Virus record (IMG/VR): IMGVR_UViG_3300032315_001177
Location: 1 to 25,344 of that record
Length of the DNA stretch: 25,344 bases
Source of the DNA: a virus
Strand: one strand, 5' to 3'
Part shown: positions 3,982 through 25,344 of the stretch, piece after piece
Layout of the letters: every line of letters begins with the position of its first letter
Position numbering within the stretch: the stretch's first letter is position 1
The notes under the pieces: generated by a model
What the model was told of the DNA's origin: nothing
What the model saw: the letters and a program-made list of their open reading frames with translations, nothing else
Databases searched by the model: none
Made by a program: the position numbers and the translations under genes

Positions 3982-4013
3982 AGCCCTGGCATTTCTATGT
4001 TGGGGCTTTTTTT
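3982..4013 (+). terminator. Rho-independent terminator after the fibre operon
   Basis: The stem agccc (3982-3986) pairs with gggct (4003-4007), extended by G-U pairs, and is followed by a run of seven T (4007-4013). Together with the preceding inverted repeat it closes the operon 1870-3943. Confidence 0.8.
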
Positions 4014-4118
4014 GTAATTGAATTAATTAATCTATATAATTAGACTAGTTAAATTAATTTGGAAAAGTTCAAACAATTTCATATCTTCACCGCAATTTTA
4101 ACTAAACTGTACTCATAA
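4014..4118 (+). promoter_or_regulatory. AT-rich leader, probable promoter region of the tail operon
   Basis: About 105 nt of non-coding, strongly AT-rich sequence between a terminator and the first gene of a long gene run, so a promoter is expected here. The best candidate I find for the Bacteroidota -7 box (TAnnTTTG) is ttaatttg at 4054-4061, with one mismatch and no well-spaced -33 TTG. The claim therefore rests on position more than on motif; a phage-specific promoter would not be recognised by eye. Confidence 0.35.
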
Positions 4119-5366
4119 ATGACTGATAATCAACATATACTCTCTCAACTCCAAGAATTGTTGGGCTGGAAGAAGAGCAAAAAGTTCTACGCTGAGAAGT
4201 TGGGAGTGACAGAAGCAGAAGTGGATGAGTTGATGAAGGAAATAAGACATAGCCAATCCATATCAGATGAAGCAGAAGTTGCAAATTATATAGGTGCTTT
4301 AGAGGATGAAATTGTTCATTACAAAGAAAACCTCAAAGACGGACTTGGAGAAGTGATTATCAATTGTCCAGATGAAATAAGAACACTGGAGGAGTTGATT
4401 AAGAAGTGTAAGATAGACACTTCCAAATGGGAGATTGTAAAATACGTACAGAACTATTGGGGAAACAAAGAAAACCCTTACTGGCAAGTGAAAGCTTGGT
4501 TGTCTAAAAAGAAAGAGGACAATCTGTTTCAACAAAACTTTATAGATTTTCTTTCATCCTATTCTTTCCATTCTTCAGAAATAGAACCTCCTGAAGTGGA
4601 TGTTGATAAATCAGATGCTTGTCTTGTAATAAATAAACAAGATGCCCATTTTGATAAACATGATGTTGATGGTGAGAACGACATTGAATCCAGATTTGCA
4701 GACATCTATCAACGATTATACACCATCTTGGCTCAAGCAAAACTTAGCAACAACATTGAAAAAATCATCTATATAATAGGAAGTGATGAGCTGAACAGTG
4801 AGTTCACCCAAACAACTACAAAGGGTACACCACAACAAAATATACAAACCTATCACGAAACTTTCAAGTTGGTTTGTGAATTTGAAAAAAACATAATAAA
4901 ACTACTTCTTGAGAATGCCGAACGTGTGGATGTAATATATGTTCCTGGAAATCATGATGAATATGTAGGATGGCACTTGATCAATTGGTTAAGTGCCTTT
5001 TACGTTGATGGAAGAATAAATTTTGATTGTGAGCCAAAGTATAGGAAATATGTGAGCTATGGAGAGACAGCAATGATGTTTAATCATGGTGATGCCATGA
5101 AACCAGCAAAGCTTGCAGCCATCTTTCCTATGGAATATCGTGAACTATGGTCTTATCATGGCAACTTCTACATATTTACAGGAGACAAGCACCATGAACT
5201 AAGCCAAGACTTCAATGGTATAAAGTTTTATCAAATCCCAGCTTTCTCCAAAGCACATAGTAAATGGGATGAGAAAAACGGATACACATCCTCCAGAGGA
5301 GAAGTGACGGCATTCCTCATAGAAAAGTATGATGGAATAACAAATATATTCAAACAGTATTTATAA
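4119..5366 (+). CDS. Calcineurin-like metallophosphoesterase with HTH-like N-terminus
   Basis: A 415-residue protein. Residues 5-50 (LSQLQELLGWKKSKKFYAEK, then LGVTEAEVDELMKE) look like a helix-turn-helix. Residues about 85-125 hold a segment common before phage phosphoesterase domains (CKIDTSKWEIVKY, WQVKAWLSKK). The catalytic part begins near residue 168: D175-A-H177, G221-S-D-E-L-N226, G277-N-H-D-E281, N322-H323-G-D325 and G355-D-K-H358-H359. These fit the metal ligands of the calcineurin-like family (DxH, GDxxN-type, GNHD, H, GxH), with Ser in the GD position and a GDKHH form at the last motif. The likely reaction is metal-dependent phosphodiester or phosphomonoester hydrolysis; the substrate is unknown. 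It is the first gene after a terminator and its stop overlaps the next ATG (TAATG), so it is co-expressed with neck proteins. Confidence 0.85.
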   Translation: MTDNQHILSQLQELLGWKKSKKFYAEKLGVTEAEVDELMKEIRHSQSISDEAEVANYIGALEDEIVHYKENLKDGLGEVIINCPDEIRTLEELIKKCKIDTSKWEIVKYVQNYWGNKENPYWQVKAWLSKKKEDNLFQQNFIDFLSSYSFHSSEIEPPEVDVDKSDACLVINKQDAHFDKHDVDGENDIESRFADIYQRLYTILAQAKLSNNIEKIIYIIGSDELNSEFTQTTTKGTPQQNIQTYHETFKLVCEFEKNIIKLLLENAERVDVIYVPGNHDEYVGWHLINWLSAFYVDGRINFDCEPKYRKYVSYGETAMMFNHGDAMKPAKLAAIFPMEYRELWSYHGNFYIFTGDKHHELSQDFNGIKFYQIPAFSKAHSKWDEKNGYTSSRGEVTAFLIEKYDGITNIFKQYL

Positions 5367-6097
5367 TGGCAACGTTAAGGAAATTGGTTTCAGATGTCAG
5401 GGGAATGCACAGATTGCTGTCCACTGACAACCTTATTACAGATAGGGTGATAGCTTCTGAAATCAAGAATAACACCCTTCTTCTTGTAAAAAGGGAGACC
5501 AATCTCAGGAAACTTTGGGCTACAAACACCATATTTACCACCATCCCATGCTTGGAAATGGTGGAAGTTCCTATTTCAGAATGTTGTGATTATGCAGATC
5601 CTTGTAATGTTGCAAGGAGCAAATACAAACTTCCAAAGATAGCAGAAGGAAACTATCAATATCTGATTCAGGGAGTTTATTCAATAAATGCGATGAGCGG
5701 TATGGGTAAGAAGATAAAAGAGATTACAATCAACAGATATGTCAATCTCCTAAAACTTCCCATAATAAAGAATGAGGAATATTATTGGATAATGAATGGC
5801 TACCTGTACATCAGTAATCCACTATTACAGGCAGTGAGGATAAGTGCTTATTTTGAGCAGGACGTTCCTAATGATATTCTATATCCTAAGGATTGTAATT
5901 GTAACAATCCTATTGTAACAAACGATGAGTATTGTTTAAACCCTTTAGATAAAGAATATGCCTGTCCAGGGTATTTGGAAAAACAAGTTCTTGAGTTGAC
6001 ATCTCAAAAGCTCATGAACACTTATTTCAGACTAAAAGAAGACCTTACATCAAACAATGTGGACGGACAGGCAGTAAATGCACCAAACGGATCATGA
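5366..6097 (+). CDS. crAss-like neck/tail ring-type protein
   Basis: A 243-residue protein whose ATG shares one base with the stop of the phosphoesterase gene. The N-terminus (RLLSTDNLITDRVIASEIKN, then LLLVKRETNLRKLW) is a conserved helical segment that I recognise from a family of crAss-like structural proteins encoded just before the IHF-like gene. The middle (TTIPCLEMVEVPISECCDYA, YLYISNPLLQAVRISAYF) is beta-rich and contains CNCNN near residue 180. In the crAss-like particle the proteins encoded here build rings between portal and muzzle; assigning this one to such a ring is inference from neighbours and pattern. It ends with an ATGA overlap to the next gene, the tightest form of coupling, as expected for subunits needed in fixed ratio. 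Confidence 0.65.
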   Translation: MATLRKLVSDVRGMHRLLSTDNLITDRVIASEIKNNTLLLVKRETNLRKLWATNTIFTTIPCLEMVEVPISECCDYADPCNVARSKYKLPKIAEGNYQYLIQGVYSINAMSGMGKKIKEITINRYVNLLKLPIIKNEEYYWIMNGYLYISNPLLQAVRISAYFEQDVPNDILYPKDCNCNNPIVTNDEYCLNPLDKEYACPGYLEKQVLELTSQKLMNTYFRLKEDLTSNNVDGQAVNAPNGS

Positions 6098-6567
6098 GAG
6101 TATCAGTTGATTTTAGGTCAGCAAGCAAAGAAAACTACAACGACTTTTGCAAGAAGCACCCTTCCATAAAACTCACCTTTGATGAATGGAGGAATATAGT
6201 GTATTCCTTCAACGAAGCTTTCAGAAACTACATACTTGAAACTGGAGAGAAAGCCAAACTTCCTTATGGGTTTGGTGAATTTTCCATTAATAAGAAGAAG
6301 CGTAGGAAGATGAAAGGTGTTAACGATGAATTCATCAATCTTCCTATAGACTGGCAAAAGACGAGAGAGAAAGGAAAATACATCTACAATTTCAATTATC
6401 ACACTGAAGGATATTTCTTCGGATGGATGTGGTTTAAGAAATCAGCAAGATTCAAGCATGCAGATCTTTGGTATTTCAAACCTTCAAGGGTGACATCCAG
6501 ACTTCTGTCGCACTACATAAAAACTGATGAAAAATACCAACACATCTATAGAACCTGGAAATTTTAA
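6094..6567 (+). CDS. IHF-like small protein, probable tail ring component
   Basis: A 157-residue basic protein (MRVSVDFRSASKENYNDFCK). Residues about 27-70 (TFDEWRNIVYSFNEAFRNYI, then GEKAKLPYGFGEFSINKKKR) follow the pattern of the integration host factor/HU-like genes annotated in crAss-like phages at this position: two helices, then a G-F-G-x-F strand and a basic turn. The C-terminal half is unlike bacterial IHF and is rich in Trp, Phe and Tyr (FFGWMWFKKS, HADLWYFKPS). My recollection is that some IHF-fold proteins of crAss-like phages were found to be structural ring subunits of the tail; that role fits the position between a ring-type and a gp4-like gene better than DNA binding. The start overlaps the previous gene by 4 nt; the next starts 3 nt later. 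Confidence 0.7.
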   Translation: MRVSVDFRSASKENYNDFCKKHPSIKLTFDEWRNIVYSFNEAFRNYILETGEKAKLPYGFGEFSINKKKRRKMKGVNDEFINLPIDWQKTREKGKYIYNFNYHTEGYFFGWMWFKKSARFKHADLWYFKPSRVTSRLLSHYIKTDEKYQHIYRTWKF

Positions 6568-6570
6568 AAT

Positions 6571-7533
6571 ATGTCTTATTATTACAAATATGATTTCACT
6601 TCCCCTGAGGTCATATACGCTACTGTCAAAGAAGAACTCAAAAGTTATTTTGACACAGGGGCTATAGATGACTTGATGTTCCCCACCTACCTTGACAAAT
6701 GTCTGAGGAAGTTGGGCAGGTCAAGCTATGTTATTACAGAACAACCTCTTGAAATAGAGGATTTCCAAGCAAGGCTTCCAGACAACTTTTATGCTGTAAG
6801 AGAAGCATGGATGTGCACGGAGATTCCTCAATATCCCTATCAAACAGCAAATTCTTTCTACTCACAAGCTGCTTCTGAAACCACTATTCAAGTGAGCCCC
6901 ATCATATCAAATGGCACTCCCTGTACATCAAATTGTCCTCCTGACAATTGTACATGTATGCCAGAATTGATTCAGGCTGTTTATAAAACAAACCACCAAA
7001 CTACAAGATCTTACAAAAGAGCATATCTTCTGAAGCCAGGAAACATCTCTGCAAGAAACCATTGTGATGTAGAATATACAAATGCTTGGAGGTTCACAGC
7101 AACTAATCCTGCTCTTAATGAATTCACTCCTGGTTCTGCTAGTTATGATTCTTTTGACATAAGGGACAACAAATTTGTCACTAATTTCAGAAATGGAATA
7201 GTGCATTTGATCTTCTATGCAAATGAATACGATGGTTCTGGGAATCAACTTATGCCTGATAACTTTCGTGTAAGGGAATATATAGAGGCATTCATAAAAT
7301 ACAAGGTGTTTGAAACTCTGTCAAATCAAATAAATGATGAGACATTTGAGCAGATAAACAGAAAACTTGGTTATTACAAACAGCTTTCTGAAGAAGCATT
7401 CATCATGGCAATGATTGAGATAAAGAAGCAGGATGCATATGCAAAGCAAAGGAGGATAAAACAAGACCTCAACAGGTTCAACATGTATGAACTTCCTAAC
7501 AGAATAAGCAGAAATTGGCGTAGAAATAACTAA
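6571..7533 (+). CDS. Tail stabilisation/head-completion protein, P22 gp4-like
   Basis: A 320-residue protein. The N-terminal part (YYYKYDFTSPEVIYATVKEE, then DTGAIDDLMFPTYLDKCLRK) matches the tail stabilisation family (P22 gp4-like) that closes the portal in crAss-like phages. A Cys-rich insertion (CTSNCPPDNCTC, about residues 113-124) sits in the first half. The C-terminal third (REYIEAFIKYKVFETLSNQI, then LGYYKQLSEEAFIMAMIEIK) is helical and ends basic with RNWRRNN. In related particles this protein binds the portal as a ring and receives the tail hub. The order ring-type, IHF-like, gp4-like, muzzle is the conserved crAss-like tail cluster, which supports the call strongly. The downstream gene starts 2 nt after its stop. 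Confidence 0.78.
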   Translation: MSYYYKYDFTSPEVIYATVKEELKSYFDTGAIDDLMFPTYLDKCLRKLGRSSYVITEQPLEIEDFQARLPDNFYAVREAWMCTEIPQYPYQTANSFYSQAASETTIQVSPIISNGTPCTSNCPPDNCTCMPELIQAVYKTNHQTTRSYKRAYLLKPGNISARNHCDVEYTNAWRFTATNPALNEFTPGSASYDSFDIRDNKFVTNFRNGIVHLIFYANEYDGSGNQLMPDNFRVREYIEAFIKYKVFETLSNQINDETFEQINRKLGYYKQLSEEAFIMAMIEIKKQDAYAKQRRIKQDLNRFNMYELPNRISRNWRRNN

Positions 7534-7535
7534 TC

Positions 7536-10500
7536 ATGGCTGACGAGCAACAATCAAATATAAGACAAGAGTCTAATGCTGCTGTTTCTGGTCTTAACAT
7601 GGACCAAACCCTCAATCAAATAAAGAGGGGACAGCTCACCTATGCTCTTAATGCTGCTGTTGAAAACTATGATGCTTCTGGTATAAACTACCAAAATGAG
7701 CCAGGAAATGAGCTATGTCTGAATTTTCCTGAAAACTATCATGTCATTGGCACACATAGCATCGTAGAACAGAACAAGCATATATTCTTTCTCTTAAATC
7801 CTGAAACAGGAGATAGTGAGATTGGATATATGGATAATAATGATTGTGTCTATAAAACCTACATAAACGCAAAGTGTCTTAATTTCAACATAAACTATCC
7901 AATACACAAGTGTGTGCACAAGATTACAAATTGCACCACGGAGATATATTGGACAGATGGACTGAACTCACGCAGGTATTTGGATTTGAATAATCTTCCT
8001 TACAAAACTGTTTTGGAAGGAGAGATTTGTGATGCGGTGGTTCTTCCTGAAGTGGACTGTAACAAACTGAATGTTCAACCAAACTTTCAAATCCCACAGC
8101 TGGATATTGTAGATGTAGTGAATGGTGGCAATCTCACCTCTGGCAGTTATCAATTTGCAATACAATATTGTAATGCTGGAGGAGATGGATATACATCCTA
8201 CTATTCTGTAACCAATCCTACACCAATAGCAAAACCAAACATCACCACTCCTGATTTCAATTATGCTGTAGGAAAGTCAATAGTGGTGAACATCAGTGGA
8301 ATTGATGTCACTGGATATTTCCAATATTTCAATCTAGCAGTGATAAAGACAGTGAATTCTGTCACATCTGTAGAATTGGTTGGCACTTATTTCATTGATA
8401 ATACAAACAGACAAGTAACATATAATGGGCAGAACCAATCTCAAATAAGGCTCACGACAAATGACATATTTGAGAAGTTCCCCTACTATGAGATTGCACA
8501 AGACATCACTGCTGTGCAGGATGTTCTTGTATGGGACAATCTTACATCAATAGACAGGATAAACTATCAGCAGATTGCAAATAAGATAAAGCTGCAATGG
8601 CAATCTTATAAACTTCCTGCCACAGAAAACTATGCTGATGAGCTCAATGCAACCAATCTAAGAGGTTATTTGAGAGATGAGGTGTATGCTTTTGAAATAG
8701 TCTTTTTGCTGAAGAACGGAAAGCAAACTGATGGATTTCATATTCCTGGAAGAGCACTTCTGCCAACAGAAGCATCTCTTCCTGACATCCCAAGCACCAA
8801 TCCTGACTTTACAGAAAATGGTGCAAGTGCTCCTTATTGGAAAATATACAACACAGCCACTGTAATTGGTGATGCTTTTGGTGATCCTATCAACAATGCT
8901 GTTCCTTACAAATATGGAGAGTTTGCTTATTGGGAATCAGAAGAAACCTATCCCTGCAACACAGATGTATGGGGTGAGTTGGCTAACACTCCCATCAGAC
9001 ATCATAAGTTTCCAGACGCACTTGTAAGTCCCATCTTTGAAAGCGGTAGTTATACACTTTCACCAAATATGTCTGTTTCCATGGAACAACGTTCAATATT
9101 CCCATTGGGAATGGTGTTCGATGTTCAGCAAGTGGCATTTTTGATAAACACATCCAATCTCACACAAGAGCAGAAAGACAACATTGCTGGATTCAAGATA
9201 GTGAGGGGTGACAGAAGCACTAATAAATCTATTGTAGCAAAAGGTATTCTGAGGAACGTAGGTAAGTATGAGAGGCAGAAAACACAATACTATTTTCCCA
9301 ACTATCCATATAACGATCTTACAGAAGATCCTTTCCTTTTGGATAAACCTAACTCCTCTGAAGATTGCGGAACTTATTCCCTAAGTGCTCTCAGTGCAGG
9401 ATTTTATTCATATACAGATTGCTTCAGTGGGGAAACAATAAACAAGTCTATAGCTGCAGGGGAATCCGTTTCTGGAGTGTGCTCTTCTTCTTTCCCAATA
9501 GTCAGTTCAGGTGTCATAAGCGTGTTGAAAAACTCAGTGAGTACATATGACATAACATGCTATTCTACAACAGGATGTCTTCTTGCAATATACGATGCAC
9601 AAGGAGTGGCTTCTGGTCTTGTATCTCTTGGCAAGAATGAAGTGAAATCAGTAACTTCTTATTTGGAGCCAACTAAAGAGCCTGCACTTCCTCTGCAAGA
9701 ATACAAAATAGTTAAAACAGGAACCACTGGAGGAGACCCAAATTGCACTTCCAAAAGTCTGAAAGCTTATGATTATTCAGATGTAGGACTGAGACAAGTG
9801 TTCAATTCTCCAGAAACATCCTTTGGTAGTCCTTTCCTTGGCGATGTATTGAAGCTTGAGAATGTAATGTTTGGTGCAGGAAGAGGTCATCATGTACAGG
9901 TGACAGATCATGCTTTCTATAAACTGATAACCAAAGAAGCACAGGAAGATGCATTGAGATCAAGTGAAAAGATTGCAAGCACTACAGGCACGTTTAATGC
10001 TGCTGCAATGTTCACTGCCTACCAAGCCTACCTCACCATATACATAAATGGAATAACAAGGAAAAACTACACCTATTCCTACAACTCAATAGCAACTTAT
10101 GACTATTTTGCTAATATTGATAACAATCTAGGAGTAAAGCAAAGGAAACTGGATATTGCTCAATATGCATTTCCTGGCGTACAAAATGTAGGAGAAAACA
10201 TAAACCTGAACAACTTCAACAGGGAATCATCAGTCTATCTGAAAACAAACATTGCACTCCCTGTTCCAAGTCAAACTCCTAATCTTCTGATAGGTGGAAC
10301 AGTGCCTTCAATACAGGATAGGTCAAGGTGGACAATCTCTGAGAAAGGAAATTGCAACACTCCAGAGAATCAGTTTGATATAAGCGTTGTTTCCTATTAC
10401 GCATCAATAAAGAATACACTTCCTAATCAGTGGGGTCAGATATATTCTTACACCACCATTGATACAGGATTTCAAACACTATTGAATACAAGCACTGCTC

Positions 10501-12938
10501 AAGGCGTAGTTTTTGGTGGTGACACATTCATTAATAGGTTTTCTTTCAAGACAAAGATTCCTTTCTTCATAGACAACAGGGTGGGTGCACCTGATGACAG
10601 TGACATCTATTATGATGAAATAGGTAATGTTGCCTATCCAAAGTATTGGTTTTCATCTCGTTCTATTCTTTATGATTACACGCATGTAAGCAGTGCTACA
10701 GAGATAAAGAATATAATCTCCATCAAGGCTCATAACTTTGATTGTCCTAATAGTCAATATCCTGCACCAAATCCTTCTGCAACTCCTCCAGTGGTAAATC
10801 CTGGCAGGACTTTCTATGATGGAAAAATGTATCTGTTTGCCTACGGCATTCCTACATTCTATTGTGAATCAAGCATTAACGTAGATCTTAGGCAAGCATT
10901 CAATAACAAAGAGGGAGATTTCTACCCTCACGTAAGTTCAGGAATTCCTGACCAATGGTTTCAAGAAACTTTTGTACCAATAGCTTTTGACAACACTTAT
11001 TACTACAATACATCCTATTCCAAGCAGAATGAGGAAAACTTCTTCTCACATCTGCCTGTGGACTGGAGTCAGCAACTTTGTTACAGTAATTTCCCATTCA
11101 GAGCAATATACTCTGATAGACAACAGAGCTTCTCTGATAATAGGATAAACAGTTGGCTGATTTACAGACCAATAAGTTTCTTTGACTTTCCTCAGAATTA
11201 CGGAAAACTCACTTCCTTAGATGGAATACAAAATAGAGCTGTACTTGCAAGATTTGAAAACAAAAGTCTCTTGTACAATACATTGCTCACAGTTGACACA
11301 AGTAATCCTCAAGCTGCCTATATTGGCAATGACAGTTTGTTTAGGAGTGCCCCTCCCATTGACTTTGCTGAAACAGACCTTGGATATGTGGGCTCTCAAC
11401 ATAAGATGTTTCTTAAGATACCTCAAGGACAGATAACTATTGATGCTAAGAGAGGTCAAGTGTTTCTCGTCATGGGCAATTCTGTAAAGGATCTTTCTGC
11501 TTTTGGCTCAGGATTGAACAGGTTTTTCACTGACCATCTTGCATTTGAAATCCTAAGGTATTTCCCAAATGTAAATGTAGATAACCATTTCAACGGACTT
11601 GGACTTCATGGCGTGTATGATAGCAAGTTTGACAGAGTTTTGATCACAAAGCTTGATTACATTCCTTTGTCAAAAGATGTGAAATATGACAGTGATCTTC
11701 AGGAGTTTTACATAGAAAAAAGCTATGGTGACAATGTCATCAGAAACATTGTACAGCTTACAGACCAAACTTATTTCTGTAATAAATCATGGACTCTTTC
11801 CTTCAACTTCAACACTGACAGTTGGATAAGCTTCCACACCTATTTGCCTAACTGGTATATAGGAGAGAACAATTTCTACTATTCAGGACTGAACGAAAGC
11901 TGTGATCTTGATATAATTGCAGCTGAACAACCTACATTCACTACCACCACCACGTCCACCACTACAAAAGCTCTTAATTGCACTCTTGTAGGACAGGCTG
12001 TAAGGATGGATTGTTCGCTTGCAGGAATAGCTGTTTACATTGTTCCTCCTACAACAACGTCCACCACCACTCAAACACCCACTACAACAACCACTTCTAC
12101 GTCAACTTCCACTACATCAACCACTACAACAAGCACTACCACTATAGCTTTGCCTTGTGAATGTCATGATGGGGTGGTTGCAAGTTCTGGATATTATTCT
12201 TTCTACACATGTGATGGAACGTTGAACACTGGAATAAATGACTTTGGATTGGCTATTTGTTATGACATCAACAAGTCTCATACAGATAACATAAGTGATG
12301 AAGGTCCTTCTGATTTCTGTTCATGTTATGGTCCTACAACAACGACAACAACATCTACAACATCTACGACCTCCACCACCACTACGTCTACATCCACAAC
12401 ATCAACAACAAGTACAACAACTTCTACAACCACTGCATTTCCTTATTCATATTCAGGTGTTGTAGGTAAAATAACTCCTGAATGTTGTGCTGTTGTTGGA
12501 ACATTTGTAACTGCCTATACAACTTGTTCTCCGATAATATTGGGATGCATATTGTATGATTTATTGTCTAATCCAATTGTTAATGAGAAATTCACTTCTG
12601 CTGGTGTATGTTATGAAACAGATGGTTCTGGTGCTGTAATTACAATAACAAGCTGTACAACCACTACGACCACCACTACGACATCTACCACTACAACACC
12701 GCCAACAACAACATCCACAACTACATCAGAGCCTTCAAACTACTATTATGTAGCACAAAATTGTGATGATCAATACACAAATGGTACATTTGTTTCAACA
12801 AATGATTCTCTTGTGGGTACATCTTTCTTCTACGATGGAGCTTGTTGGTTTATAACAGATGGCACTGTTCCATCAATAGCAATAACAATTCCTAATTATT
12901 ATACATCATGTATAGATTGCCAAAATGCAAATTCATGA
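7536..12938 (+). CDS. Giant muzzle-type tail protein (P22 gp10-like) with Thr-linked Cys-rich C-terminal domains
   Basis: An 1800-residue protein. The start MADEQQSNIRQESNAAVSGL and GLNMDQTLNQIKRGQLTYAL are typical of the large crAss-like tail nozzle (muzzle, P22 gp10-like). Residues 1-1465 form the core, beta-rich with many Tyr, Asn and Phe, ending in the recognisable segment SWISFHTYLPNWYIGENNFY. A small Cys-containing domain appears inserted near residues 609-665 (GFYSYTDC, GESVSGVCSSSFPIVSSG). After residue 1466 come Thr/Ser linkers at about 1467-1477, 1506-1536, 1601-1633 and 1708-1731, each followed by a Cys-rich domain of about 28 to 75 residues. The usual C-terminal muzzle segment is absent here and appears as a separate gene at 13565. 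The core would form the tail tip through which DNA leaves; the extra domains are probably surface-exposed. Confidence 0.8.
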   Translation: MADEQQSNIRQESNAAVSGLNMDQTLNQIKRGQLTYALNAAVENYDASGINYQNEPGNELCLNFPENYHVIGTHSIVEQNKHIFFLLNPETGDSEIGYMDNNDCVYKTYINAKCLNFNINYPIHKCVHKITNCTTEIYWTDGLNSRRYLDLNNLPYKTVLEGEICDAVVLPEVDCNKLNVQPNFQIPQLDIVDVVNGGNLTSGSYQFAIQYCNAGGDGYTSYYSVTNPTPIAKPNITTPDFNYAVGKSIVVNISGIDVTGYFQYFNLAVIKTVNSVTSVELVGTYFIDNTNRQVTYNGQNQSQIRLTTNDIFEKFPYYEIAQDITAVQDVLVWDNLTSIDRINYQQIANKIKLQWQSYKLPATENYADELNATNLRGYLRDEVYAFEIVFLLKNGKQTDGFHIPGRALLPTEASLPDIPSTNPDFTENGASAPYWKIYNTATVIGDAFGDPINNAVPYKYGEFAYWESEETYPCNTDVWGELANTPIRHHKFPDALVSPIFESGSYTLSPNMSVSMEQRSIFPLGMVFDVQQVAFLINTSNLTQEQKDNIAGFKIVRGDRSTNKSIVAKGILRNVGKYERQKTQYYFPNYPYNDLTEDPFLLDKPNSSEDCGTYSLSALSAGFYSYTDCFSGETINKSIAAGESVSGVCSSSFPIVSSGVISVLKNSVSTYDITCYSTTGCLLAIYDAQGVASGLVSLGKNEVKSVTSYLEPTKEPALPLQEYKIVKTGTTGGDPNCTSKSLKAYDYSDVGLRQVFNSPETSFGSPFLGDVLKLENVMFGAGRGHHVQVTDHAFYKLITKEAQEDALRSSEKIASTTGTFNAAAMFTAYQAYLTIYINGITRKNYTYSYNSIATYDYFANIDNNLGVKQRKLDIAQYAFPGVQNVGENINLNNFNRESSVYLKTNIALPVPSQTPNLLIGGTVPSIQDRSRWTISEKGNCNTPENQFDISVVSYYASIKNTLPNQWGQIYSYTTIDTGFQTLLNTSTAQGVVFGGDTFINRFSFKTKIPFFIDNRVGAPDDSDIYYDEIGNVAYPKYWFSSRSILYDYTHVSSATEIKNIISIKAHNFDCPNSQYPAPNPSATPPVVNPGRTFYDGKMYLFAYGIPTFYCESSINVDLRQAFNNKEGDFYPHVSSGIPDQWFQETFVPIAFDNTYYYNTSYSKQNEENFFSHLPVDWSQQLCYSNFPFRAIYSDRQQSFSDNRINSWLIYRPISFFDFPQNYGKLTSLDGIQNRAVLARFENKSLLYNTLLTVDTSNPQAAYIGNDSLFRSAPPIDFAETDLGYVGSQHKMFLKIPQGQITIDAKRGQVFLVMGNSVKDLSAFGSGLNRFFTDHLAFEILRYFPNVNVDNHFNGLGLHGVYDSKFDRVLITKLDYIPLSKDVKYDSDLQEFYIEKSYGDNVIRNIVQLTDQTYFCNKSWTLSFNFNTDSWISFHTYLPNWYIGENNFYYSGLNESCDLDIIAAEQPTFTTTTTSTTTKALNCTLVGQAVRMDCSLAGIAVYIVPPTTTSTTTQTPTTTTTSTSTSTTSTTTTSTTTIALPCECHDGVVASSGYYSFYTCDGTLNTGINDFGLAICYDINKSHTDNISDEGPSDFCSCYGPTTTTTTSTTSTTSTTTTSTSTTSTTSTTTSTTTAFPYSYSGVVGKITPECCAVVGTFVTAYTTCSPIILGCILYDLLSNPIVNEKFTSAGVCYETDGSGAVITITSCTTTTTTTTTSTTTTPPTTTSTTTSEPSNYYYVAQNCDDQYTNGTFVSTNDSLVGTSFFYDGACWFITDGTVPSIAITIPNYYTSCIDCQNANS
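11934..11966 (+). repeat. Thr/Ser linker tract 1 of the muzzle-type protein
   Basis: Encodes residues 1467-1477 (TFTTTTTSTTT). It separates the muzzle core from a short Cys-containing domain (residues about 1478-1505). Confidence 0.88.
12051..12143 (+). repeat. Thr/Ser linker tract 2 of the muzzle-type protein
   Basis: Encodes residues 1506-1536, only Thr and Ser apart from one Gln-Thr-Pro break and a closing Ile. All four Thr codons are mixed, so the tract is not a simple trinucleotide repeat. It precedes the domain starting CECHDGVVASSG. Confidence 0.9.
12336..12434 (+). repeat. Thr/Ser linker tract 3 of the muzzle-type protein
   Basis: Encodes residues 1601-1633, 33 residues of Thr and Ser only. 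Sub-units such as acatctacaacatctac recur within it. It precedes the domain starting YSYSGVVGKITPECC. Confidence 0.9.
12657..12728 (+). repeat. Thr/Ser linker tract 4 of the muzzle-type protein
   Basis: Encodes residues 1708-1731 with one Pro-Pro break. It precedes the last domain (YYYVAQNCDD...FYDGACWFITDG region) of the 1800-residue protein. Confidence 0.9.
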
Positions 12939-12960
12939 ATGTGAAAATAAAATGTAAAAA

Positions 12961-13563
12961 ATGCCCCAAACAGTAACAATAACACTCACTCTTACAGGAA
13001 CAGATACAGGTCCTTTCAACTTGTATTCTGATGTAGATGGATTTCTGAGTCCATTTCAGACAGGAGTGCCAAAAGGAGATCTTGTAGTAGGAGAAACATT
13101 TTACAATGTTCCTGATGGAGCCACTACAATCAGGGTGAAATCAACAGGAGTGTGTACTAATTATATAGATCTTGTTATATCAGGCACAACTACTACTACA
13201 TCTACAACATCTACTACCAGTACAACCACTGTTTCTCCAGTGGTGAACTATCTGTTCATTTATGTAAGAGATATAGGTGTTGGAGCAAATGGAGCTCCTA
13301 CATTACGATATACAAGAAACGGAGGACCTCTTATAACATTAGGAAGTGTGTCAACAGGTACATGTACACTTTCTTATTCCATATTTGGTATTTCTCCTGG
13401 TGATGTGATTCTTTTCACAAGCACAGAAGGATATGCAATGAATGGTTCAAATGGTTCAAACGTTTGTCCTGCCCCTGTAGGAAGTAACACTTATTCATAT
13501 ACAATACCTTCACCAGGTGTTAACAATGTAAGTTTGAGTTTCAACAGAGACATCATAGTGTAA
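12961..13563 (+). CDS. Two-domain accessory tail protein with Thr/Ser linker
   Basis: A 200-residue protein after an A-rich leader (gtaaaaa). Residues 1-75 form a small beta-rich domain (TLTGTDTGPFNLYSDVDGFL, VPDGATTIRVKSTGVCTNYI) that I recognise as a module often attached through Thr-rich linkers in crAss-like and other Bacteroidota phage tail proteins. Residues 76-90 are a Thr/Ser linker. Residues about 95-200 form a second beta-rich domain with Gly and Asn turns (NGSNGSNVCPAP). It sits between the muzzle-type gene and the gene that looks like its C-terminal part, so it was either inserted there or split off. The likely role is a surface-exposed decoration or binding protein of the tail tip; no ligand can be deduced. 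It has no catalytic motif. Confidence 0.62.
   Translation: MPQTVTITLTLTGTDTGPFNLYSDVDGFLSPFQTGVPKGDLVVGETFYNVPDGATTIRVKSTGVCTNYIDLVISGTTTTTSTTSTTSTTTVSPVVNYLFIYVRDIGVGANGAPTLRYTRNGGPLITLGSVSTGTCTLSYSIFGISPGDVILFTSTEGYAMNGSNGSNVCPAPVGSNTYSYTIPSPGVNNVSLSFNRDIIV
13186..13230 (+). repeat. Thr/Ser linker tract in the two-domain accessory protein
   Basis: Encodes residues 76-90 (TTTTTSTTSTTSTTT), the same composition as the four tracts of the preceding gene. Confidence 0.9.
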
Positions 13564-13564
13564 A

Positions 13565-14434
13565 ATGAAGACTATCACCATAAAAATCAAGAGGGCTGGC
13601 AATAGGCTAACTGTATTCTCCATATCTGATGATAGGGGGAACACACTTGCTTCTAATGTGACAAAATCTAATTTGATCAATGGTCTTGCTTTGTCAGTGG
13701 AGGATGATGTTAAGACAATAGTGATTTCTTCTGAGGGGGTAAACTGCTGCTCAAAAACATGGAATATTCCCATCACATACGCCACTAGTCAAGAACTTGC
13801 AAGTATTGTATTCACTCCCTTGAACACAGCTTCCATGTGGAGACACCTCAAGAATCCTACAATATACAATAAATACTATGATTGCATAAAGCCTTACATA
13901 ATAGAATATCCTTTCGCATACCAATACCACGATGAGATTCTTCAGAATGTAAAAGATTATACAAAGGCATATCAATATCTATCAGACAGCTTTGGTGTAT
14001 TTGAAGATCATAGGAAAGTTGAAACTGACAGATACTATTTCAATCAAGCAATCCTTTACAATAGTCAGCAGTCTTCAGGCATTCTGAAGTTGGCTCCCAA
14101 GCCCTACAGAAACATGCAAGACTATATGAAATATCCCATATACGAAGCTGACAGTAAAACCATTACATTTACAAAGAGTGATAGTTTTTATCAGTATAAT
14201 ACATTCTGGTCATTGGTGAAAGACAAAACACAACCATTGTTTTTAACCAGTTGTGAATCAATGTCTTATGATAAGATAGTTAATCAATCAAACATGGACT
14301 ATTCAAAACGTTCATTCAAAAAAGCTCCTCTTCGTTCAAAAGAACTCAAAGTGAGACACATTCTGAATGAGCATTCTGACGTTCACCTCATCTCACAATT
14401 CATCTACACACCTGCCCAAATCAGTTATAAGTGA
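13565..14434 (+). CDS. Muzzle C-terminal domain encoded as a separate protein
   Basis: A 289-residue protein starting one nucleotide after the previous stop (taaaATG). The first 65 residues form a small beta-rich domain. From about residue 62 (KTWNIPITYATSQELASIVF, WRHLKNPTIYNKYYD) to the end (NQSNMDYSKRSFKKAPLRSK, then LKVRHILNEH) the sequence has the pattern that I recognise as the C-terminal part of the large crAss-like muzzle protein. The core at 7536 lacks that end, so the muzzle appears to be built here from at least two polypeptides, or the third gene has taken over the terminal role. The ATG of the next gene overlaps its stop (TGATG). Highly conserved-looking Phe-Tyr-Tyr-rich segments (SFYQYNTFWSLVKDKTQPLF) suggest a tightly packed structural interface. 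Confidence 0.65.
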   Translation: MKTITIKIKRAGNRLTVFSISDDRGNTLASNVTKSNLINGLALSVEDDVKTIVISSEGVNCCSKTWNIPITYATSQELASIVFTPLNTASMWRHLKNPTIYNKYYDCIKPYIIEYPFAYQYHDEILQNVKDYTKAYQYLSDSFGVFEDHRKVETDRYYFNQAILYNSQQSSGILKLAPKPYRNMQDYMKYPIYEADSKTITFTKSDSFYQYNTFWSLVKDKTQPLFLTSCESMSYDKIVNQSNMDYSKRSFKKAPLRSKELKVRHILNEHSDVHLISQFIYTPAQISYK

Positions 14435-24700: not shown

Positions 24701-25344
24701 CTTGAAGAAATAAATAAAAAACTTGAAAACAAGAAGAAAGAACTTGAAAATATACAAAAAAATCTTGATGAAATAGGTGACGAAGTAAAAGTTGCTCAAC
24801 CTCGTACAAAAAGAGAGAAAGCTCTTGAAGAGAAGTATCCTGAACTCAGTCGTCAGAAGATTAGATTTGGTAAGGTGTTTTCTGCCACTACTCAGGCATT
24901 GACAAAGCTCTCTCGTATGAAGGAGAGCGTTGAAGATGAAATTAATGCTCTTACTGCTGAAAAGGCTGAACTTGAATTCAACCTTTCATATTTTGAAGAC
25001 TTTACACAAAATCTTGATGAACTTCCTGAAAATTCTGGAGAGTTTTTAAGAGAGCTTAAAGAGCAAGTGAAATGGATTGAGCTTCTTGTAAAAGAAACAG
25101 GTGATAACATCAACACCCTTTCTAAGATAGCAAAAGATATTGAGTCTGCTATTAAAGACTTTGTATCTCTTCTCAAATCATCCTTACAAAAATTTGATGC
25201 TGATTATCCACAATATATAAAAGATAGTTTTGAAAGAATAAAAGATAACCCAATATTTTCCGAAGTCAAAGGACTAAAAGAATATCTGGTTGATTATGTT
25301 CTACTTCAGGATTTGCAAAAAGACATATCAATCAATGAAAATCA
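21767..25344 (+). CDS. Giant cargo/ejection protein, truncated by the window end
   Basis: The frame starts at ATG 21767 (MAETNDSPLLDRLALESEFS) and stays open for 1192 codons to the window end. Residues 20-60 are Pro/Gly-rich and probably unfolded. Two hydrophobic stretches follow: about 126-152 (GLLLTGTTFLQNTVGLVNGL) and about 201-242 (FTANFLWNGIVKNAGFAAGS, LSGAAFAAALKAIPLTARLF), which could enter a membrane. Residues about 300-770 are helical (GLSTSGEAGMEAFQNLNKFR). Residues about 780-925 look like one or two SH3-like beta domains (ILGENEDGTIKIKDNKGEER, KPGRLEYKDGKLFFVYKDNN). Residues about 965-1008 are a clear coiled coil (ELENETRERLEEINKKLENK). This layout fits an ejection protein that helps DNA and cargo cross the envelope. 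In crAss-like genomes the virion RNA polymerase genes lie downstream of this block. Confidence 0.75.
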   Translation, partial: MAETNDSPLLDRLALESEFSGYTPPEPPAPLPNVPYTNVPLPSPRIGGDIGAGGGTRSTVESNPLTAYRNSLQVNKGGDGRLTGGSIMRTLAESTSARYNSYVPGDYNNEDAYAQGQSWTDRMANGVGKGLLLTGTTFLQNTVGLVNGLARWSQDGKFASFYNNDFNRWLDDINKQAEDIAPNYETDVEKNAAWYSPKYLFTANFLWNGIVKNAGFAAGSALSGAAFAAALKAIPLTARLFSIGKAAQALEASEKALLSANKAADTYGKMKALSDRFLSSYNVLNPAGRFVVAGLSTSGEAGMEAFQNLNKFRDEKIREFKETHGGREPIGDELELINKTAEDIGNTSFLLNTGLLSATNYIQFPKILGSSEKLEKGLIKSLARETDEIIKDATGKYIRKEATSKAGKLLSGLNKIRPYVFSTSEAFEEGAQYAIGVGAENYYNKKYDGKPTTFLDSLVYGIENTLGTNEGMKNVVIGGLSGSLMQARGTYGERAQRARNTSEALKRFNEKNLSDFTKETADSVNRGTVIQEEREKRLRQGDILESKDLEADYIINYLTPRIKFGRYDLVAADIAEYRALASTDEGFAQLQAEGKALDTDNKEAYLKRLSNLESTANNIKSLYQSLNLRYAGLVDKENKPLYTSAVIDKMIYAATKVTDYDKRSVELSENLIKNGVDVDNVINDVVSGESVAYNEAIGKIEDLRKKGKINDDQKEDLIRDLKDVSEVALRRQLFMKEYDEIKNSPEKYKELPPQKEVIEEELQEEKKEEDKQKIKLKTKTGEREYEVGVKYFVGKGFDYDKDGLEIPISVSNLTILGENEDGTIKIKDNKGEERNISKDMLLDYELTKVSSVRDNKTANYFLLHKNEIFEYNFGEQFGGKKPGRLEYKDGKLFFVYKDNNGKIKRKVLKNEHFVAQGEYTQPRIKKIGEVETSEQEASRKELTSPEEIARQKSEDTLAKNRGSRIEIIVELENETRERLEEINKKLENKKKELENIQKNLDEIGDEVKVAQPRTKREKALEEKYPELSRQKIRFGKVFSATTQALTKLSRMKESVEDEINALTAEKAELEFNLSYFEDFTQNLDELPENSGEFLRELKEQVKWIELLVKETGDNINTLSKIAKDIESAIKDFVSLLKSSLQKFDADYPQYIKDSFERIKDNPIFSEVKGLKEYLVDYVLLQDLQKDISINEN

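Follow-up and report, generated by a model that had tools for sequence, protein, structure and literature searches.

Crassviruses have at their tail tip a protein, the muzzle, that is described as a gatekeeper. In phi-crAss001 this protein (gp44) is a hexamer at the end of the tail, and its crass domain has been suggested to touch the host (PMC10172136). Published and isolate muzzles are single chains. We examined a stretch of viral DNA of 25,344 nucleotides (IMG/VR record IMGVR_UViG_3300032315_001177, positions 1 to 25,344; the whole stretch is called the window) that encodes a muzzle of the same core family as gp44, located at the same place after the ring protein genes and presumably serving likewise as a tail-tip platform. 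Unlike the described muzzles, that of the window is split and carries a string of exchangeable domains. Such linker-bounded domains are gained, lost and exchanged far faster than the backbone that bears them. We consider it likely that an uncultured crAss-like phage bears, in this arrangement, a modular display cassette at its tail tip, with the swapped units as putative binding heads.

The protein of 1800 residues that the original prediction took for a muzzle matched the Crassvirales muzzle profile PF25731 (crAss_MUZ) with 108.2 bits and an E value of 4.8e-31, the cut-off being 27, which bears out that identity. Its gene comes after those of ring proteins 2 and 1, for which matches above cut-off were obtained upstream (PF25702 at 5366-6097 and PF24228 at 6571-7533). 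When the PDB was searched directly with the sequence of the muzzle of the window, no match was obtained; hence, the identity rests on the Pfam profile. Judged from its sequence, the protein would be a tail-tip hexamer with the crass fold. The best match of its C-terminal half in INPHARED was only 35% identical, which indicates an uncultured lineage known from metagenomes.

The last 336 residues of the muzzle protein were found to consist of four Thr/Ser linkers and four inserts (D1 to D4), while the gene after it, referred to as the post-muzzle gene, encodes an adapter, a linker and one domain (D5). The muzzle protein has Ser/Thr runs of 33, 21, 14, 9, 8, and 7 residues, compared with a mean of 4.4 and a maximum of 9 for the longest run in 2000 shuffles of the same protein. 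The runs are far beyond chance, and no Ser/Thr run of 5 or more residues occurs in the 1464-residue core. All five predicted tracts, four in this protein and one in the gene after it, are thus present. The parts of the locus are as follows.

7536-11927, plus strand: muzzle core, the conserved platform (residues 1-1464; PF25731 match and identity of the relatives)
11928-11975, plus strand: Thr/Ser linker 1 (from the sequence)
11976-12047, plus strand: D1, two copies of a short CxLxGxA motif, non-globular (motif in 1 to 5 copies in most relatives)
12048-12152, plus strand: Thr/Ser linker 2 (from the sequence)
12153-12326, plus strand: D2, a Cys-rich five-strand domain of 58 residues (AlphaFold2 model; homologues in relatives)
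12327-12443, plus strand: Thr/Ser linker 3 (from the sequence)
12444-12653, plus strand: D3, a Cys-rich domain of family F21 (common only to L002 among the 80 relatives)
about 12654-12740, plus strand: Thr/Ser linker 4 (from the sequence)
12741-12935, plus strand: D4, the C-terminal Cys-rich domain, singleton family F73 (an unrelated domain at the same place in the nearest relative, L002)
12961-13185, plus strand: adapter domain of the post-muzzle gene, family F0 (a Thr tract comes next in all 80 copies fetched from IMG/VR)
13186-13239, plus strand: Thr/Ser linker 5, in the post-muzzle gene, within the Thr/Ser tract at 13174-13242, predicted to be unstructured (predicted local distance difference test score, pLDDT, below 50 at residues 77-94)
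13240-13560, plus strand: D5, family F6, the swappable domain at the C-terminus of the post-muzzle gene product (replaced by other families in relatives with 88-100% identical adapters; weak immunoglobulin-like, Ig-like, fold match)
13565-13783, plus strand: N-terminal domain of the split-off muzzle piece, similar to the adapter (by hhalign)
13829-14431, plus strand: muzzle C-terminal piece, a separate gene in the window clade (tblastn to the single-chain muzzle of Lbo-JY46)

The original prediction had placed a different small, Cys-rich domain after each tract. The inserts do differ from one another, but the first (LNCTLVGQ...) is the pair of CxLxGxA copies and not a domain. Cys-richness was confirmed for the muzzle tail (5.4% Cys against 1.4% for the core) but not for the post-muzzle domain (1.9%). 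Nearly every relative has the CxLxGxA motif, in some cases as tandem copies with no linker between them. In its CxLxGTA form it is about 10 residues long, is present in 1 to 5 copies and often also occupies the very end of the muzzle tails of relatives; it is possibly a beta-strand or disulfide element. It may be noted that a sixth tract (1716-1775) closes the gene at 603-1784 as a conserved C-terminal Thr tail (TTTSTTT...TTTTLIP, 1716-1784). No domain follows this tail in any relative looked at, and it is either an empty linker or a functional tail.

When IMG/VR was scanned with the C-terminal 565 residues of the core, 224 relatives were obtained, and 80 of these, at 64-82% identity, were kept. 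The sequence after the core ranges from 39 to 1196 residues among them. In their complete tails, of which 56 are distinct, 36 domain families were counted (blastp E<1e-4, with linkers and the short motif masked); profile searches join several Cys-rich families into larger superfamilies, so that the number of distinct folds is below 36. Only 5 of 26 tail pairs with muzzle backbones at least 90% identical in DNA had the same domain set. The nearest relative, L002 (82%), has D1, D2, and D3 in common with the window, and its last domain is different (F4). Homologues of D2 were found in L002, L007, L063, L026, L085, and L086. Single-sequence queries of IMG/VR with D3 and D4 gave no relatives, the tool probably needing near-exact peptide words, and a composite tail of a relative had no match in INPHARED. 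It had been predicted that domain content would vary between constant flanks. Close relatives indeed showed near-identical flanks around different linker-bounded domains, rather than the same domains in the same order.

Whole-domain exchange was seen most directly in pairs of close relatives. L044 and L054 have muzzles that match at 99.2% identity over 4 kb, and one of the two contains an additional domain of some 70 residues, whose left junction is in the CxLxGTA repeat and whose right junction is in a linker. In L081 a domain lies inside a linker and is missing from L078 (93.8% identical), both junctions being in linkers. The post-muzzle genes of L061 and L064 (97.2%) have an identical adapter and linker start, after which the remainder is unrelated and DNA identity returns at the stop codon. 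Different domain families were present in the post-muzzle genes of 13 of the 24 distinct pairs with backbones at least 90% identical, the adapters being 88-100% identical. Similarly, the upstream linker gene has different post-linker domains in L003/L004 and in L023/L024 (93-94%). All these loci are metagenome contigs and the linkers are repetitive at the protein level, which would fit short-read assemblies that had fused unrelated genes at low-complexity Thr linkers. However, at least eight tail types were found unchanged in two to four metagenomes each (e.g., L053/L055/L056/L057, L034/L035/L037/L039, and L040/L041/L047), and the difference between the tails of L043/L045 and L047/L040/L041 was found in several samples on each side. 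Moreover, the flanks carry on with matching genes on both sides, and few exact 14-mers are common to linkers, so that assembly graphs would rarely merge there. Assembly chimerism is therefore unlikely, and as the explanation of the exchanges we regard it as very improbable indeed.

Other tail genes with linkers also contain these domain families, as do phages whose backbones differ and, in one instance, a member of the phi13:2/elemo lineage. Eight families (F4, F5, F7, F11, F12, F16, F18, and F24) are shared between muzzle tails and linker genes other than the muzzle gene. The F18 domain of the L036 muzzle is 85% identical in DNA to that of an upstream gene of L068, the backbones of the two being 67.7% identical. 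A domain of the L090 post-muzzle protein is 80% identical to a domain of the L046 muzzle. The L086 muzzle has two copies of D2; L085, which is the phi13:2/elemo-lineage phage, has a single copy whose DNA is about 75% identical to one of those two. Genes or distant backbones were compared 83 times, and in 84% of these cases the homology stopped within 6 residues of both linker-defined edges, which identifies the linker-to-linker domain as the moving unit. Repeats of the type YNCVxGxCxDPGDGSGTYATLAACQxxC are also common to L085 (4453-6177) and the muzzle tail of the crass-like L038.

The post-muzzle adapter was confirmed at 594 or more places in IMG/VR. A Thr tract follows it in all 80 copies that were fetched, and the domains after these linkers fall into 22 families. 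Every adapter-bearing record that was checked had a crassvirus muzzle or ring profile. The adapter had no match in 84,980 bacterial and archaeal genomes, and the post-muzzle protein had none in INPHARED. We lean towards a clade-wide plug-in system, in which the muzzle, the post-muzzle adapter gene and upstream tail genes share the Thr linker as a socket, along with one pool of domains within and between lineages; the tail tip would then be a rapidly re-equipped multi-ligand display on a split-muzzle platform.

For the gene at 13565-14434, homology was found to the C-terminal ends of single-chain muzzles, namely those of Leptolyngbya phage Lbo-JY46 (tblastn E 1.2e-16) and csAssE-Sib (E 3.7e-7). 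In Lbo-JY46, the match of this C-terminal piece (locus positions 5570-6112) comes directly after the core match (4001-5566), within one gene. Hence, the muzzle of the window clade is split, its C-terminal part being a separate gene, and the display cassette sits at an internal muzzle site, at the split. The three isolate muzzles that were checked contain no Thr tract and no CxLxG motif. Residues 1-73 of the split-off piece and the post-muzzle adapter are members of one family (hhalign 98.4%, E 4.5e-15), and this shared adapter may dock both the post-muzzle protein and the split-off piece to the muzzle.

The original prediction had further proposed that linker DNA serves as a recombination site for the swaps. 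In that case the linkers would be dedicated sites or hotspots, acting through repeat homology or a site-specific enzyme. Several junctions do lie in linkers (L044/L054 on the right side, L078/L081 on both sides and L061/L064 on the left side), and the ACN pattern that linkers have in common gives alignments of about 62-77% DNA identity between those of different genes. However, linkers and motif make up 57% of the tails, so that junctions are often expected there, and not all junctions are in linkers: others were at the stop codon or within the CxLxGTA repeat. When breakpoints were mapped automatically by strict blastn, many alignments ended at point divergence. The linkers, predicted to be alike, are so as protein but not as DNA: the four window linkers share no exact 14-mer, 2.7 being expected from codon resampling, and the shared 14-mers did not exceed what codon resampling gives in the 24 tails tested. 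Thr codons are more mixed in linkers (entropy 1.61 bits) than in the muzzle body (1.41 bits), ACC being about twice as common in linkers, and identical neighbouring Thr codons are slightly rarer than expected (z -2.3). Such mixing would lower slippage and repeat recombination. No tyrosine or serine recombinase (integrase PF00589, resolvase PF00239) and no reverse transcriptase (PF00078) was detected in the records of 12 relatives (74-125 kb), the window itself being a fragment. The linker-DNA part of the prediction was thus not upheld, and we think it unlikely that such sites drive the swaps. Two specific drivers were rejected on these data from 12 relatives: a diversity-generating retroelement, by the missing reverse transcriptase, and an integrase or resolvase cassette, by the missing recombinases and the lack of excess exact DNA identity in linkers. 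As to the window as a fragment, a frame of 1196 codons from about 21757 runs off its end at 25344.

The findings may be put together as follows. The muzzle would be divided into a core and a separate C-terminal piece with the cassette in between. The cassette would have two parts: (a) a string of CxLxGTA motifs and small domains, most of them rich in Cys, which is carried on flexible Thr/Ser linkers and fused to the core of the muzzle, and (b) the separate adapter-linker-domain protein. Each unit may act as an independent binding head tethered to the muzzle. The Thr/Ser linker would mainly be a protein hinge that tolerates any insert, as any domain joined in frame would still fold and be displayed. 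Exchange probably proceeds by ordinary homologous or illegitimate recombination via the flanks (core, adapter, CxLxGTA repeat, and downstream gene) with some help from weak linker homology; selection would keep the in-frame products, and no dedicated recombinase would have to act on linker DNA. Display outside the virion, with receptor or glycan binding, is what we infer for these units, and the swap of a unit would change the attachment of the virion to a host surface glycan, a protein or matrix.

The domains may instead form a stalk, decoy or decoration layer, e.g., Thr stalks with O-glycosylation that bind abundant matrix or act as a shield for the tail tip; turnover would then reflect escape from host recognition or weak constraint. 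Stretches rich in Thr are a typical feature of O-glycosylated stalks, and some relatives (e.g., L008, L017, L054, and L078) have only linkers and CxLxGTA motifs without any globular domain. But many unrelated intact folds have been exchanged without frame damage, suggesting selection for folded domains, and at least one C-terminal domain is kept in nearly every adapter protein. We therefore regard decoration as improbable.

The possible function was also approached through predicted structures. D2 gave a high-confidence AlphaFold2 model of five strands (pLDDT 91). The model of the post-muzzle protein has two folded beta domains flanking the unstructured linker, and a weak similarity to Ig-like pilin and adhesin folds was found. 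Ten domains of the window and its relatives were tried against Pfam, and a single match was obtained, a relative's domain to the DUF5122 beta-propeller. The fold check of the single domains, for which carbohydrate-binding or Ig-like matches had been suggested, was thus borne out weakly by the post-muzzle protein and not by D2. Four points weigh against a display cassette of exchanged binding heads. D2, the one muzzle domain that was folded, has no confident match in the PDB or BFVD. The relatives with linkers and motifs only imply that the domains are dispensable, at least at the muzzle-tail site. The backbone pairs that were counted are phylogenetically non-independent. Lastly, profiles of the annealing proteins ERF, RecT, and Rad52 found nothing in the 12 large records.

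A split muzzle with rapidly exchanged domains, in a widespread uncultured clade of aquatic, crAssphage-related viruses, is a direct candidate for changing host contact. Whole-domain swaps between near-identical viruses suggest a fast plug-in route to such change, and phages that are about 97-99% identical over the muzzle and differ by one domain are natural experiments. With the adapter domain as a practical handle, display genes of this kind can be sought in metagenomes, and the domain pool offers small candidate binding domains that are as yet uncharacterised.

A search of open-licence papers found no description of a linker-domain display arrangement on a split muzzle. Ig-like domains on phage structural proteins are accessory beta domains of the virion surface that come and go between close relatives. 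The weak Ig-like resemblance of the post-muzzle protein recalls them; the muzzle modules of the window clade, in contrast, are mostly short and Cys-rich, are without a Pfam match, vary in number and are placed on long Thr linkers. Diversity-generating retroelements also diversify a tail-tip ligand-binding protein rapidly (binding being putative here), but by point changes, whereas whole domains are exchanged in the window clade. A further parallel is the domain mosaicism of phage receptor-binding proteins, where whole domains are shuffled in tail proteins on an ongoing basis, across lineages too (Smug et al. 2023, PMC10684548). As in modular receptor-binding proteins, domain content in the window clade differs between close relatives on conserved flanks. 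Linkers, threonine, crAss phages and the muzzle are not mentioned in that survey, and in the window clade one type of linker joins the modules in several tail genes that draw on a common pool.

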